DNA of 44,925 bases. Origin: Bacteroidota bacterium (GTDB lineage: Bacteria > Bacteroidota > Bacteroidia > AKYH767-A > OLB10). The stretch spans positions 1-44,925 of the forward strand of contig JAHEMF010000021.1 of assembly GCA_024643795.1 (NCBI GenBank), given 5' to 3'. This document shows positions 6,800 to 32,878 of this stretch, piece after piece (position 1 is the first letter of the stretch; the number at the start of each line of letters is the position of its first letter). Both the position numbers and the translations under genes were made by a program. Under the pieces are notes generated by a model. The model had not been told where the DNA came from. It ran no database searches and saw nothing but the letters and a program-made list of their open reading frames with translations.

Positions 6800-7480
6800 T
6801 CAAAAAAGGGATGCAGATGTGTATCCCTTTTTTGATGCCCTCAAAGAATCAGATTCAAGGATTAACTTTCCTGTATCTTTTTTTGCAGCATTAATCATTG
6901 ATACTGCTATTGAGTTGGCATATACAGGCTTGTATTTTTTCAAGTTTCCAGAAAACAAAGGTGAGATTAACTGCATCAGATATTTTGCTATAAACTCACC
7001 GGGTCTTTTTTCTTTGCGGTCACCCAAAATTATTGATGGCCTAACAATAATGACCTTATCCGGCCCCTCCCTGATTACACGATCTTCCATCTCACCTTTT
7101 ACAGACAGATAAAAGTTCTTGCTGGTTGAATTGGCTCCTAATGACGAGATCACTATGAACCCACTCACATTATTTTGTCTGGCGACCTTAGCTAGTTTTA
7201 CCGGCAGTTCCAGATCAACAGCTTTGAACGCATCTTTACTTCCGGCTTTCTTAATAGTAGTACCCAGGCAGCAAAACAGATCGGTGCCATGAACCTGATC
7301 GACCCAATCAGTGTTTGATTTAAAGTTGTCTACTACAACCTGTGAGATTTTTGGATCAATGGAGATTACTTTTTTTCTGACAAACAGAATTATTCTATCG
7401 TAGTAATTATCAAGAATAAGGTTTTCTACCAACTTACTTCCAACTAAGCCTGTTGCTCCAAATACCAATGCGGTTGCCAA
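6800..7480 (-). CDS. NAD(P)-binding Rossmann-fold reductase, HTATIP2/TIP30-like
   Basis: 226 residues. The N-terminal ALVFGATGLVGSKLVENL is the glycine-rich dinucleotide-binding loop of the atypical short-chain dehydrogenase superfamily. FCCLGTTIKKAGS and VISSLGANSTS are typical of the HTATIP2-like branch. An SDR-type Y-x3-K (YLSVK) follows the serine-rich strand, and VIIVRPSIILGDRKE resembles the usual post-catalytic strand. The length fits the family. Substrate is unknown and the protein is probably cytosolic. Its start lies 3 bp after the stop of the two-TM protein gene, so it is likely third in the operon led by the ECF sigma factor. Its last ten codons lie inside a terminator hairpin. 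Confidence 0.8.
   Translation of the reverse strand: MATALVFGATGLVGSKLVENLILDNYYDRIILFVRKKVISIDPKISQVVVDNFKSNTDWVDQVHGTDLFCCLGTTIKKAGSKDAFKAVDLELPVKLAKVARQNNVSGFIVISSLGANSTSKNFYLSVKGEMEDRVIREGPDKVIIVRPSIILGDRKEKRPGEFIAKYLMQLISPLFSGNLKKYKPVYANSIAVSMINAAKKDTGKLILESDSLRASKKGYTSASLF
6802..6833. terminator. Bidirectional hairpin terminator inside a gene end
   Basis: The left arm 6802-6815 (six A, GGGA, TGCA) pairs with the right arm 6820-6833 (TGTA, TCCC, six T), giving about 14 bp with one G-T wobble around a GATG loop. U-tracts exist on both strands. It follows the plus-strand gene ending at 6784 and also encodes the last codons of the minus-strand gene ending at 6800. Confidence 0.85.
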
Positions 7481-7483
7481 ATT

Positions 7484-7885
7484 CTATGAACCTTTGAGTA
7501 GCTTTTGATTTGCTACAAAGTTAAAGATCACTACACTTGCAATACTCGCAACGATTAGCGTGGCCATAACTAACAACGATGATGAAAAAGCATTATTAAT
7601 TGTATTGGTTATTTCAGGGTTATACAGGGCCTTGATTTTAAACATACCTGTGTCACTTACCTGTGAGTTCCCTGATAAATAGATTGTGGCAGCCGTTAAT
7701 GCTGAAATGATTATACCAATGATCCACCACATAGTATTACTTATCACAGGTTGATAACCTGACAGTAATGATTGCTTACCAGTGTTTACCCGTGCCAGAA
7801 TAGATTCGGTGAGGGTGGAAGGCGGTTGATCCAGTGTTGAGCTGTTGATCAGATCTCTTAATGGGTCTTGATTATTATTGATCAT
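7484..7885 (-). CDS. Two-TM membrane protein, candidate anti-sigma factor
   Basis: 133 residues, not assigned to a named family. A hydrophilic N-terminal segment of about 50 residues (DPLRDLINSSTLDQPPSTL) precedes a TM helix at about 52-72 (WWIIGIIISALTAATIYL). An intervening loop is followed by a second TM helix near 100-125 (LLVMATLIVASIASVVIFNF). It starts 9 bp after the sigma factor stop and is followed after 3 bp by the reductase, so the three are almost certainly co-transcribed. Position and topology suggest it holds or modulates the sigma factor at the membrane. There is no HxxxCxxC zinc anti-sigma motif, so that role is inferred from context only. Confidence 0.75.
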   Translation of the reverse strand: MINNNQDPLRDLINSSTLDQPPSTLTESILARVNTGKQSLLSGYQPVISNTMWWIIGIIISALTAATIYLSGNSQVSDTGMFKIKALYNPEITNTINNAFSSSLLVMATLIVASIASVVIFNFVANQKLLKGS

Positions 7886-7894
7886 AGTTCAAAG

Positions 7895-8476
7895 TTATTG
7901 AATTAATAATTCCAATTCAGTATCCAGTACCTTCCTGAGGTAGGATTCTATTTTTTTTCTTGCTCTGAATAATTTCACTTTAATATTTGCTTCAGTCAAT
8001 TCTGTAATTTCAGCAATGTCAGTTACGGCTACATTATCCATGTAATACAATGTAATGATCGTAGACTCCATTGGTTCCAGACTATCTATAGCTTTCCTGA
8101 CAAATAGTTGTTTATCCTTATGATTTATTATTGCCCCGGTATCAAGATTGCTATCATGATGCCCTTCAATAAATGCTTCATCATCTGTTGAAGTTGTGAT
8201 CAGATTTTTTTTTCGTGTTTTGTTAATGGCAAAATTCCAGGTTATGCGATATAGCCAGGAAGTAAACTTGGAATCGCCTCTGAAACTTTCAAGTGACCTG
8301 TGGACTTTTATAAATGTATCCTGGGTGACTTCTTCAGCATCTTCAGTGGTTCCTGTTATCCTTTTGGCGATATTGAACACCATGGTCTGGTGTTTTCGCA
8401 CTAAATGAGCAAAAGCCACCTGATCCTGATGGTTCACGATCCGGTCAATGTAATAAGAGTCCTCCTGGTAGGCCAT
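7895..8476 (-). CDS. RNA polymerase ECF-type sigma factor
   Basis: 193 residues. Region 2 spans about 22-92 (FAHLVRKHQTMVFNIAKRI, DAEEVTQDTFIKVH, FTSWLYRITWNFAINKTRK), covering the core-RNAP and -10 contacts. Region 4 spans about 128-185 (LEPMESTIITLYYMDNVAV, then LTEANIKVKLFRARKKI), the -35-recognising helix-turn-helix. Regions 1 and 3 are absent, as in ECF factors. It leads an operon with a two-TM protein and a reductase. An ECF-like promoter at 8486-8516 points into it, which suggests autoregulation. Only about 9 nt separate that promoter's -10 element from the ATG, so the transcript may be nearly leaderless. Confidence 0.95.
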   Translation of the reverse strand: MAYQEDSYYIDRIVNHQDQVAFAHLVRKHQTMVFNIAKRITGTTEDAEEVTQDTFIKVHRSLESFRGDSKFTSWLYRITWNFAINKTRKKNLITTSTDDEAFIEGHHDSNLDTGAIINHKDKQLFVRKAIDSLEPMESTIITLYYMDNVAVTDIAEITELTEANIKVKLFRARKKIESYLRKVLDTELELLIQ

Positions 8477-8485
8477 TTATATAGT

Positions 8486-8516
8486 TAAGACACCTGTTCA
8501 TGGAATCTCGTTACAA
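8486..8516 (-). promoter_or_regulatory. ECF-type promoter of the sigma factor operon
   Basis: The minus strand reads -35 TTGTAAC (8516-8510), 16 nt, then -10 GTGTCTTA (8493-8486). The general ECF pattern is a -35 ending in AAC and a -10 containing GTC, 16-17 nt apart. Both elements and the spacer length recur identically on the other strand at 8528-8558. The -10 ends 9 nt before the sigma factor ATG. Confidence 0.8.
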
Positions 8517-8527
8517 TTTATCAAATT

Positions 8528-8558
8528 TTGTAACCAACTATTCACCAAGGGTGTCTTA
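8528..8558 (+). promoter_or_regulatory. ECF-type promoter of the DUF6249-like gene
   Basis: The plus strand reads -35 TTGTAAC (8528-8534), 16 nt, then -10 GTGTCTTA (8551-8558). It is the mirror image of the divergent sigma-operon promoter about a centre at 8522. The predicted leader is about 43 nt before the ATG at 8608. Confidence 0.8.
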
Positions 8559-8607
8559 TCTCTAAATTAATCTATAAAGTGTTTATAAATCTTAAAATTT
8601 AAGCAAA

Positions 8608-8949
8608 ATGACAAATGCAGCAGAAATCTTGATTCCTATAGTAATGTTCGTAAGCATTTTCGGGATCTTATATGTTTATTTCATAACACGTAATAAAGAA
8701 AGGATGGCTATGATAGAAAAGGGTGCGGATCCGGCATTATTCAATAATGCATCAAAAAGGAAGGGTACCAGCTTGAAGTCAGGAATGTTTCTGGTTGGGG
8801 TAGCACTAGGTATACTATCAGGCTATATATTGCATAATTATGCAGGAATGGATGAAGAAGTTTCTTTCTTTTCCATGGTATTCCTGTTTGCAGGTCTTAG
8901 TCTTATCGTCCATCATAAGATGGAGGGTAAGGCTTCAGATGCTAATTAA
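8608..8949 (+). CDS. Small membrane protein, DUF6249-like
   Basis: 113 residues. An N-terminal TM helix lies at about 5-26 (ILIPIVMFVSIFGILYVYFI). It is followed by the basic stretch TRNKERMAMIEKGADPALF, which is typical of the DUF6249 family, and by two TM helices near 54-75 and 85-104 separated by an acidic loop. The function of the family is unknown. It is transcribed divergently from an ECF sigma factor and carries the same promoter motif, so it is a predicted direct target of that sigma factor. Its stop codon overlaps the stop of the convergent glucosaminidase gene (shared TTAA at 8946-8949). Confidence 0.82.
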   Translation: MTNAAEILIPIVMFVSIFGILYVYFITRNKERMAMIEKGADPALFNNASKRKGTSLKSGMFLVGVALGILSGYILHNYAGMDEEVSFFSMVFLFAGLSLIVHHKMEGKASDAN

Positions 8950-10915: not shown

Positions 10916-13348
10916 ATGAAGAGTAAAGGCAAAGAAGATCTGGGTTCTGAGGAGTTAACTTTTGATGATTTCAGAACTATTGTTTTAAGTGACTATAAGC
11001 TTGCTAATGAAAGCAGGCAAACCAGCTTGTTAGGTCGTAAAGAAGTTTTAACAGGTAAAGCTAAGTTTGGCATTTTCGGTGATGGTAAGGAATTGGCACA
11101 GATAGCCATGGCTAAAGTTTTCAGAAATGGTGATTTCCGGTCGGGGTATTATCGTGACCAAACTTTTATGATGGCATCCGGGCTGCTTACCATTCAGGAA
11201 TTTTTTGCCCAATTATATGCCCATACCGATGTAAATGCTGACCCTTCATCTGCCGGAAGGCTTATGAATGGACATTATTCTACCAGATTGCTGGATGAGA
11301 ATGGTGATTGGAAGAATCTTATGGAGATGAAGAATTCTTCATCTGACATTTCACCTACAGCCGGCCAGATGCCCAGGTTGTTAGGTTTGGCTCTGGCATC
11401 CAAAATTTACAGATCCAGTCCACAACTTGCTAAGGATAAATTCAGGAAATTCTCACTCAGTGGCAACGAAGTTGCATTTGGTACCATAGGCGATGCCAGT
11501 ACTTCAGAAGGATTGTTTTTTGAAACTATGAATGCCGCCGGTGTTTTACAAATACCTATGGCTGTTTCAGTTTGGGATGATGGATATGGAATTTCAGTCC
11601 CTACAAAATATCAAACCACTAAGGCAAGTATTTCTGAAGCTTTAAGTGGCTTCAAACGTTCTAAAGACAAACCCGGATTTGCGATTTTCAAAGGGAAAGG
11701 CTGGGATTACCCAGGACTGTGCGAAATGTATGAAGAAGGTATACGTCTTTGCAGAGAGGAGCACATTCCGGTGTTGTTCCATATAACGGAAATGACACAA
11801 CCTCAGGGTCATTCTACTTCAGGATCACACGAACGTTATAAATCTAAAAAGAGACTGAAATGGGAGGATGAATTCGATTGTATCACCAAAATGCGTGAGT
11901 GGATTCTGCAGTCGGCCATTGCAACACCCAAAGAACTTGATGTTATTGAAGTCGAAGCAAAGCAGTATGCACGGGGTCAACAAAAGGCCGCCTGGGAAGC
12001 CTTTAGAAAGGATATTTCCATAGATTCAGATAAGGTCTCCGCATTGATAAACTCCGTTCGTAAGGAAAGTACTAATGGAGTGTTCATTGAAAAGATAGCA
12101 GCTGATCTAGCAGAGGGTTCAGATGTTGAAAGAAAAGATCTTGCAGCAGTTGTTAAAGCTGTGCTAAGAATGACTTCCGGTGAAAATACACCGGCTCGGC
12201 AAAATCTATTGTCGTGGATGAACTCATGGGATGATGTGATACATGACAGGTATCATTCTCAGCTTCTATGTGAAACTTCAAGATCTGCAATGAAGGTATC
12301 AATAACACCCGTAGTTTATAATGCTGACGCACCAATGGTGGATGGCAGGGAAGTGTTACTCTCAAATTTTGATGCCTTGTTAAGTGCTTTCCCGGAAATG
12401 GTTGCCTTTGGTGAAGATGTAGGGAATATTGGAGGTGTAAATCAAACATGGGCCGGATTACAGGAAAAATATGGTGAACAAAGGATCTCTGATACGGGTA
12501 TCCGCGAGGCCACAATTATTGGACAAGGTATAGGTATGGCCCTGCGAGGGTTAAGGCCAATTGCTGAAATACAATACCTCGATTATCTCGTATATGCACT
12601 TACAGTTATAACTGATGATCTTGCATGCCTTCGCTACAGAACTAAAGGAGGTCAGATGGCGCCACTCATCATCAGTACTCGTGGCCATCGTCTTGAAGGT
12701 GTTTGGCATAGTGGTTCACCCATATCAATGTTACTGGGTTCTTTGAGAGGGATATATCTTCTTGTTCCTAGAAATATGACTCAGGCTGCAGCATATTATA
12801 ACACAATGATCAGGTCGGATGATCCGGCGCTAATCATTGAACCATTGAACAGTTACAGGGTTAAAGAGAAACTACCATCAAACATGGGAGAGTTTACTCT
12901 TCAACCGGGTCATCCGGAAGTATTGCAGGAAGGTGAAGATGTAACAATTGTGACCTATGGATCATGTTGTCGCATAGTTATGGATGCAGTTAATTTACTT
13001 GAGCAATCAGGTATATCATGCGAAGTGATTGATGTTCAGTCATTGCTTCCATTTGATGTTGATCATACATTGGTTGAATCTCTCAGGAAAACAAATAAGA
13101 TCGTATTTGTAGATGAGGATGTTCCAGGAGGAGGAACTGCGTATATGATGCGTGAGGTGATAGAGGTGCAAGGTGGGTTTGACTGGCTTGAAATGCCTCC
13201 GGTAACTTTATCTGCTCAGCCTCATCGTCCAGCATATGGTTCAGACGGCGATTATTTTTCAAAACCTAATGTGGAGGATGTATTTGATACCGTGTATGAT
13301 CTGGTACAGCGATGCAACCCTGGGTTATATCCTCCCCTTTATAAATAA
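10916..13348 (+). CDS. Fused alpha/beta E1 of a 2-oxoacid dehydrogenase complex
   Basis: 810 residues. The N-terminal 430 residues are an E1-alpha: SGYYRDQT substrate/ThDP region, the ThDP-Mg motif GDASTSEGLFFETMNAAG at about 191-208, and QPQGHSTSGSHERYKS. From about 465 an E1-beta follows: MVDGREVLLSNFDALL, FGEDVGNIGGVNQ, RISDTGIREATIIGQGIGMA, and the C-terminal transketolase-type domain. The enzyme is thiamine-diphosphate dependent and decarboxylates a 2-oxoacid, most likely branched-chain. The single-chain fusion is usual in Bacteroidota. An in-frame TTG lies just before the chosen ATG. It heads a tight run with murQ (8-bp gap), an unknown gene and rlpA. Confidence 0.9.
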   Translation: MKSKGKEDLGSEELTFDDFRTIVLSDYKLANESRQTSLLGRKEVLTGKAKFGIFGDGKELAQIAMAKVFRNGDFRSGYYRDQTFMMASGLLTIQEFFAQLYAHTDVNADPSSAGRLMNGHYSTRLLDENGDWKNLMEMKNSSSDISPTAGQMPRLLGLALASKIYRSSPQLAKDKFRKFSLSGNEVAFGTIGDASTSEGLFFETMNAAGVLQIPMAVSVWDDGYGISVPTKYQTTKASISEALSGFKRSKDKPGFAIFKGKGWDYPGLCEMYEEGIRLCREEHIPVLFHITEMTQPQGHSTSGSHERYKSKKRLKWEDEFDCITKMREWILQSAIATPKELDVIEVEAKQYARGQQKAAWEAFRKDISIDSDKVSALINSVRKESTNGVFIEKIAADLAEGSDVERKDLAAVVKAVLRMTSGENTPARQNLLSWMNSWDDVIHDRYHSQLLCETSRSAMKVSITPVVYNADAPMVDGREVLLSNFDALLSAFPEMVAFGEDVGNIGGVNQTWAGLQEKYGEQRISDTGIREATIIGQGIGMALRGLRPIAEIQYLDYLVYALTVITDDLACLRYRTKGGQMAPLIISTRGHRLEGVWHSGSPISMLLGSLRGIYLLVPRNMTQAAAYYNTMIRSDDPALIIEPLNSYRVKEKLPSNMGEFTLQPGHPEVLQEGEDVTIVTYGSCCRIVMDAVNLLEQSGISCEVIDVQSLLPFDVDHTLVESLRKTNKIVFVDEDVPGGGTAYMMREVIEVQGGFDWLEMPPVTLSAQPHRPAYGSDGDYFSKPNVEDVFDTVYDLVQRCNPGLYPPLYK

Positions 13349-30381: not shown

Positions 30382-31428
30382 ATGGAAGTAGCTGATCTTA
30401 TTTTTAAAGTTATTTTTGTTCTGGCAGTATTTGGAATATCATTGCTGGTTGCAATGTATTCTACTTATGCTGAACGTAAAGTGGCAGCTTTTTTTCAGGA
30501 TCGTCTTGGCCCTAACCGTGCTGGTCCTTTCGGCATCCTTCAGCCGCTTGCAGATGGTGTAAAGATGTTTATGAAGGAAGAGATAATACCTACAAATTCC
30601 GACAAAGCTCTGTTCATTCTTGGTCCATCCATTGCAATGTTAACCGCATGCATGACCGGAGTAGTTATACCTTGGGGTAATTCACTTATCATAAATGGAA
30701 AAGAATTTGTGATGCAGATTACCGATGTAAATATTGGTATCCTTTATATTTTCGGAGTGGTGTCAATAGGTGTTTATGGAATAATGATAGGAGGTTGGGC
30801 ATCAAATAATAAATTTTCACTTTTAGGTTCTCTTAGGGCTTCTTCACAAATGATCAGTTATGAACTGGCAATGGGTATGTCAATCATTGCTATTGTAATG
30901 ATGAGTGGAACATTGAGTGTTAGAGAAATTGTTCTAGGTCAGCCTGGTGGGCACTGGAATGTTTTATACCAGCCTTTAGGATTTTTGCTATTCTTCATTT
31001 GTGCTTTGGCTGAGACCAATCGTACACCATTTGATCTCCCTGAATGTGAGACCGAATTAGTAGGTGGTTATCATACTGAATACAGCAGTATGAAACTTGG
31101 ATTCTATCTATTTGCGGAATATATTAATATGTTCATCAGTTCTGCGGTTATAGTATGCCTGTATTTCGGTGGTTATAATTTCCCGTTCATTGAAAGTCTG
31201 GGGCTATCACATAACGTGGTCTCACTGCTTGGAACTGGTATATTCTTCATAAAAATATTCTTCTTCATTTTTGTGTTTATGTGGATCAGGTGGACCATCC
31301 CCAGATTCAGATATGATCAGCTTATGAGGGTAGGGTGGAAGGTATTGTTGCCACTTGCTGTGTTGAATATTGTGATCACGGCTATAGTTTTACTATGGAA
31401 AAATGATCTATTCTCGTTAAATTTTTAG
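30382..31428 (+). CDS. nuoH: NADH-quinone oxidoreductase subunit H
   Basis: 348 residues with about eight TM helices. The signature ERKVAAFFQDRLGPNRAGPF is followed by GILQPLADGVKMFMKEEIIP. ALAETNRTPFDLPECETELV and GGYHTEYSSMKLG form the acidic loop near the quinone site. MWIRWTIPRFRYDQLM lies near the C-terminus. It joins the membrane arm to the quinone chamber. Confidence 0.96.
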   Translation: MEVADLIFKVIFVLAVFGISLLVAMYSTYAERKVAAFFQDRLGPNRAGPFGILQPLADGVKMFMKEEIIPTNSDKALFILGPSIAMLTACMTGVVIPWGNSLIINGKEFVMQITDVNIGILYIFGVVSIGVYGIMIGGWASNNKFSLLGSLRASSQMISYELAMGMSIIAIVMMSGTLSVREIVLGQPGGHWNVLYQPLGFLLFFICALAETNRTPFDLPECETELVGGYHTEYSSMKLGFYLFAEYINMFISSAVIVCLYFGGYNFPFIESLGLSHNVVSLLGTGIFFIKIFFFIFVFMWIRWTIPRFRYDQLMRVGWKVLLPLAVLNIVITAIVLLWKNDLFSLNF

Positions 31429-32552: not shown

Positions 32553-32878
32553 GTTTATCATTACAAATATTGCAACATGTGCCGGTGAACAATTATGTTC
32601 TACTGGCGGCCATGTTGTTTTGTATAGGAGTGTTTGGTGTTTTATTTAGAAGGAATACCATCATTGTTCTGATGTGCGTAGAGCTAATGCTGAATGCTGT
32701 CAATTTATTGATGGTAGCATTTTCAGCAATGCATAACGATCCGGGTGGGCAGATCTTTGTATTCTTTATTATGGCCGTAGCTGCTGCGGAAGTTTCTGTA
32801 GGGCTGGCTATCATGGTATTGATTTACAGAAACTCCGGAAGCGTGGATATTGATTTATTAAATAAACTAAAAGGTTAG
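32549..32878 (+). CDS. nuoK: NADH-quinone oxidoreductase subunit K
   Basis: 109 residues, three TM helices, related to the MrpC antiporter subunit. [20 protein letters not shown] carries the conserved membrane glutamate, and [17 protein letters not shown] carries the second one. The ATG overlaps the nuoJ stop, indicating translational coupling. Confidence 0.95.

Follow-up and report, generated by a model that had tools for sequence, protein, structure and literature searches.

ECF systems are marked by AAC and CGT promoter elements and by autoregulation (PMC8103513). In the EcfG/NepR/PhyR locus of Alphaproteobacteria, an operon of sigma and anti-sigma factor and a divergent partner are both under promoters of the same ECF sigma factor (PMC8103513). 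A further point of comparison is given by the class I anti-sigma factors RseA and RsiW, which are membrane proteins encoded directly after their sigma factor; this class binds sigma by a domain of four helices. Promoters with AAC and CGT boxes are found for the sigma-E and sigma-W types and also for the sigma-X and sigma-M types. The locus described here lies in a stretch of 44,925 nucleotides of a Bacteroidota genome (contig JAHEMF010000021.1)—hereafter, the window. It appears to follow the known scheme in which one ECF sigma factor controls two divergent units, with a different partner and a different second gene.

The sigma gene (7895–8476, minus strand) encodes a protein of 193 aa and belongs to the ECF sigma factors (group IV), since it features only the sigma2 and sigma4 domains, both above the Pfam cut-off (Sigma70_r2, 70.9 bits; Sigma70_r4_2, 40 bits). 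No named curated subfamily could be assigned: among the 25 listed of 104 NCBIfam matches, only the superfamily model TIGR02937 is above cut-off. In orthologs of 54% and 41% identity, the gene arrangement and both promoter elements are retained. The second gene of the operon (7484–7885, minus strand) encodes a membrane protein of 133 aa with two hydrophobic stretches, and in most of the 63 loci compared below, the gene after that of the sigma factor is of a comparable kind. This protein is a probable anti-sigma factor. Its homologs usually carry a P-S/A-x-x-F-T/S-x-x-V/I-M segment. The best PDB match of the family profile is the anti-sigma-W factor RsiW—a weak match with an E value of 0.0057 over 31 residues (RsiW 48–78)—and one homolog matches RseA_N with an E value of 7.5e-4, below the curated cut-off. 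The structure model features short N-terminal helices at low confidence, and searches of the protein gave neither a curated family match nor a NepR match. As in RseA and RsiW, the gene directly follows that of the sigma factor and encodes a membrane protein; it differs from these by a short N-terminal part of only ~45 aa in most copies and by two predicted membrane helices. In Bacteroidetes, a recognized class I anti-sigma neighbor exists for only 6% of ECF factors (PMC7406223), which fits an anti-sigma type that has so far escaped recognition.

The divergent partner (8608–8949, plus strand) encodes a membrane protein of 113 aa of the DUF6249 family (PF19762; 63.8 bits compared with a gathering threshold of 33) and is the conserved putative target gene. 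Its AlphaFold model features three long helices at good confidence (mean pLDDT 85), with an ERMAMIEKG motif after the first helix. A fold search of the PDB yielded no match with an E value under 1, and a literature search found no work linking DUF6249 to ECF factors. At the membrane, the protein would work as an effector or as part of a feedback. The locus would tie an uncharacterized membrane family to a dedicated sigma factor. At its 3′ end, the gene overlaps by 4 nt with a convergent gene that encodes a glucosaminidase domain (PF01832; 8946–9638, minus strand). Compared with the EcfG/NepR/PhyR locus, whose two units are under joint control, the arrangement here, for which comparative sequence makes such control likely, shows three differences: the partner is a three-helix DUF6249 membrane protein in place of PhyR, a response regulator; instead of NepR, the second gene encodes a two-helix membrane protein; and the predicted regulon is tiny, whereas that of EcfG is the general stress response. 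Because partner and second gene are unrelated to those of EcfG–PhyR, the locus is not a member of that system.

The divergent intergenic region (8477–8607) has a length of 131 bp and a GC content of 26%. The probable sigma operon promoter (8486–8516, minus strand) consists of the −35 element TTGTAAC at 8510–8516 and the −10 element GTGTCTTA at 8486–8493; the probable DUF6249 promoter (8528–8558, plus strand) consists of the same −35 element at 8528–8534 and the same −10 element at 8551–8558. Each is an exact match to TTGTAAC-N16-GTGTCTTA, which occurs in the whole window only as these two copies, one per strand. A previous reading of the window from its sequence only (the sequence-only reading) had described the elements as mirror images about position 8522, with 11 bp between the back-to-back TTGTAAC elements, and both statements are correct. 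It had also held that identical elements and spacing are improbable by chance; the chance of an exact 15/15 twin in this AT-rich region is indeed ~2e-7. The shorter core GTAAC-N18-GTCNNA is found twice in the window compared with 0.20 expected from shuffles. The genome search that the same reading had proposed, run with the slightly shorter pattern TGTAAC-N17-TGTCTTA, returned only the two copies of the window without mismatch in the 2.88-Mb assembly. Both strands thus carry the sequence features of an ECF-type promoter—AAC in the −35 element, CGT or GTC in the −10 element, and a fixed spacing—in the form GTAAC-N18-GTC. The GTAAC −35 element, the (C/T)GTC −10 element, and a distance of 16–19 nt between the boxes are shared with the sigma-E, sigma-W, sigma-X, and sigma-M promoter types, from which the promoters here differ by their Bacteroidota lineage and by a spacer of 18 nt with covarying forms of 17 and 19 nt. 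That the arms agree perfectly, at 15/15 positions, is a local trait, since those of the closest relatives are unequal (TTGTCTTA compared with GCGTCTCA), and the T before GTC in the −10 elements of the window is a C in most relatives.

A DUF6249 profile scan of ~85,000 species genomes led to 80 loci; once the window and five relatives were added, 63 divergent pairs of ECF and DUF6249 genes were available. The pattern GTAAC-N17..19-GTC occurs on both intergenic strands in 60 of the 63 loci; dinucleotide shuffles gave 0.51 of 63 on one strand and 0.01 of 63 on both, and the reversed pattern 1/63 and 0/63. The three exceptions carry the same variant twice: in two Cesiribacter loci (L125 and L141), both promoters read GTAACC..GCATC with CATC as the −10 element, and in L154, both strands read GAAAC..GTC with GAAAC as the −35 element. 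Including these variants, all 63 loci across Bacteroidota carry an equivalent element for each of the two genes; Dyadobacter, Spirosoma, and Marinifilum are among the taxa with the divergent pair. Moreover, the two promoters of a locus resemble each other. Their spacers have the same length (18/18, 17/17, or 19/19) in 52 of 60 loci. After thinning to 31 representatives with a sigma identity under 60%, the spacers agree in 29 loci compared with 19.8 expected, with none of 20000 permutations as high, and the presence or absence of C before GTC agrees in 28 compared with 21.9 expected (p 0.002); these p-values are guides only because thinning leaves some shared ancestry. Such paired changes are expected if a single sigma factor reads both promoters, even if part of the agreement could stem from common descent or lineage habits despite the thinning. 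The 63 co-changing promoter pairs constitute a natural data set for the coevolution of ECF sigma factors and their promoters. DUF6249 genes lacking a divergent ECF gene carry the element upstream in 19 of 23 cases, and the four genes devoid of it are exactly those with an ECF gene 2–50 nt downstream on the same strand.

Hence, the two elements are very likely real promoters of one sigma factor, and we infer that this factor is the one encoded at 7895–8476 and that both promoters are in fact transcribed. With high confidence, the locus as a whole is best described by a scheme in which the holoenzyme carrying this sigma factor reads both mirror-image elements. The minus-strand promoter would drive the sigma gene together with the gene after it, which probably encodes the anti-sigma factor—a positive autoregulation of sigma that is restrained by the anti-sigma factor. 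The plus-strand promoter would drive the DUF6249 gene as the main target. A signal that frees sigma from its anti-sigma factor would then increase both units together. The assignment of one promoter to the sigma operon and of the other to the DUF6249 gene, as made in the sequence-only reading, gains support from the conservation and the shared changes. In B. thetaiotaomicron, no ECF binding motif was known in 2020 (PMC7366714), and the locus would offer a promoter sequence and sigma pair ready for the bench in a phylum with few known ECF motifs.

Upstream of the 14 sigma genes of this genome, the element is found twice, before the window sigma gene and before one on contig C37; it is found upstream of none of 25 other ECF genes from relatives. 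The genome contains 15 GTAAC-N18-GTCNNA sites, six of which lie within ~50 nt upstream of a gene start: two in the window, one on contig C47 before a gene for a CPBP/Rce1-like membrane protease, and three on C37. The latter three (31159–31188, 32846–32875, and 12732–12761; L004, L005, and L030) read GTAACA-N17-CGTC and stand before the second ECF operon, which includes an anti-sigma-like gene, and two DUF2807 genes. At the sites of the window and of C47, GTAAC is followed by C or G and the −10 element has TGTC; at those of C37, these are A and CGTC, respectively. This genome therefore seems to harbor two related promoter subclasses, and the C37 set is apparently an envelope regulon in its own right, under promoters of a sister type. 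The second ECF operon is a counterpoint to the scheme, since a sigma factor with the same promoter class could also read the sites of the window; another is the T before GTC in the window, where most relatives have C. It is nevertheless unlikely that the promoters, although real, are mainly read by the C37 sigma factor or by several sigma factors with overlapping regulons, as has been suggested for F. psychrophilum (PMC9723704): the subclasses divide the sites three to three, and across Bacteroidota, the element accompanies the window-type sigma factor and DUF6249, with both copies changing together. From the twin elements, the sequence-only reading had derived a binding motif for the window sigma factor. 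The part of this prediction that stands is that one sigma factor would serve both promoters; the motif itself is narrower, with GTAAC-N18(17–19)-GTC as the core instead of the full TTGTAAC and GTGTCTTA, and the class is not unique to this factor because the C37 ECF operon shares it.

The C47 site (7136–7164, L007) reads GTAACC-N17-TGTCTTA and is located 20 nt upstream of the protease gene, a possible third target of the window sigma factor with possible relevance to anti-sigma cleavage; no close homolog of this protease was found among 60 relatives. In eight other genomes with the divergent pair, GTAACC-N17-GTCNNA occurs 3–6 times per genome. Outside the divergent region, among all but two of the listed sites, only one type of site is placed cleanly before a gene in these genomes. 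This site, GTAACCGGAGAACTACCCGGTTCGTCCTA, precedes an ABC transporter gene by 61 nt and is conserved between two species of a single genus (L263 and L240; G009 and G014) but is absent from the genome of the window; the transporter may be a lineage-specific regulon member. A loose genome search with two mismatches returned fewer matches than its reversed control, and thus no large regulon is visible; because strict sites are few in the eight genomes, the strict regulon looks local. Taken by its strict consensus, the regulon looks tiny and would consist essentially of the sigma operon and the DUF6249 gene.

Transcription starts were predicted by assigning position −10 to the C of GTC, because E. 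coli RpoE requires a C there (PMC8103513). This places the starts at ~8479 on the minus strand and ~8565 on the plus strand. The sigma mRNA would accordingly be near-leaderless with a leader of ~3 nt (2–4 nt), and the DUF6249 mRNA would have a leader of ~43 nt. In 35 of 59 loci, 7–14 nt separate GTC from the sigma ATG, with a mode of 11, and in the thinned set, this holds for 27 of 33—two of these via GTG starts. Toward the DUF6249 start, the distance is never below 22. Most loci of Marinifilaceae and Spirosomaceae deviate from this by long sigma leaders. In Bacteroidota, few messages are leaderless, with 3.7% of 5′ UTRs under 10 nt in B. thetaiotaomicron (PMC7366714) and 5.5% leaderless in F. 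psychrophilum (PMC9723704), which makes the predicted 2–4 nt leader unusual, and it can be tested.

Across the 63 loci, the two GTAAC cores are separated by 6 to 679 nt, with a median of 94; the gap is at most 25 nt in 10 loci and at least 100 nt in 31. This variability indicates that each promoter is positioned by its gene and not by the other promoter. The tight 11-bp packing of the window is, by this comparison, a local feature, so competition between the directions is no more than a possibility. The proposal of the sequence-only reading that two holoenzymes probably cannot bind at once gains no support as a general rule. A competitive switch, in which such exclusion makes the two directions trade off, is for the window itself improbable. 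In its favor, the predicted starts are only 86 bp apart, so that the upstream flanks of the −35 elements overlap, and 10 of the 63 loci have gaps of at most 25 nt; however, the loci with long gaps show that exclusion is not a conserved design, and the 43 bp upstream of each start may be enough for both core enzymes. That the inner repeat GTTACAA-N11-TTGTAAC is a dyad operator, or the whole repeat an RNA hairpin or attenuator with incidental −10-like boxes, is scarcely credible despite the perfect dyad of the arms and a strong predicted hairpin (z −3.6): both readings were rejected because the distance between the arms is not conserved over the 63 loci, while the 17–19 nt spacing to GTC is; in addition, solitary DUF6249 genes are preceded by single copies in one orientation, and neither predicted transcript contains both arms.

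Going beyond the scheme of one sigma factor reading both promoters, the locus may be speculatively viewed as a widespread unnamed Bacteroidota module, a proposal held only tentatively. Its ECF regulon would comprise the module itself and DUF6249; the near-leaderless sigma mRNA would serve a fast or ribosome-selective feedback; the anti-sigma factor would be a shortened membrane form; and DUF6249 would be a membrane sensor or feedback partner. Divergence of the promoters (TGTC and GTAACC/G) from those of the second ECF factor (CGTC and GTAACA) would keep the two circuits apart. A variation of the arrangement is seen in L034 and L072, where the sigma and DUF6249 genes are separated by a small open frame and a third copy of the element has been acquired by the DUF6249 gene. 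In L034 (G053), this extra frame spans 2135–2470 and resembles a small membrane protein.
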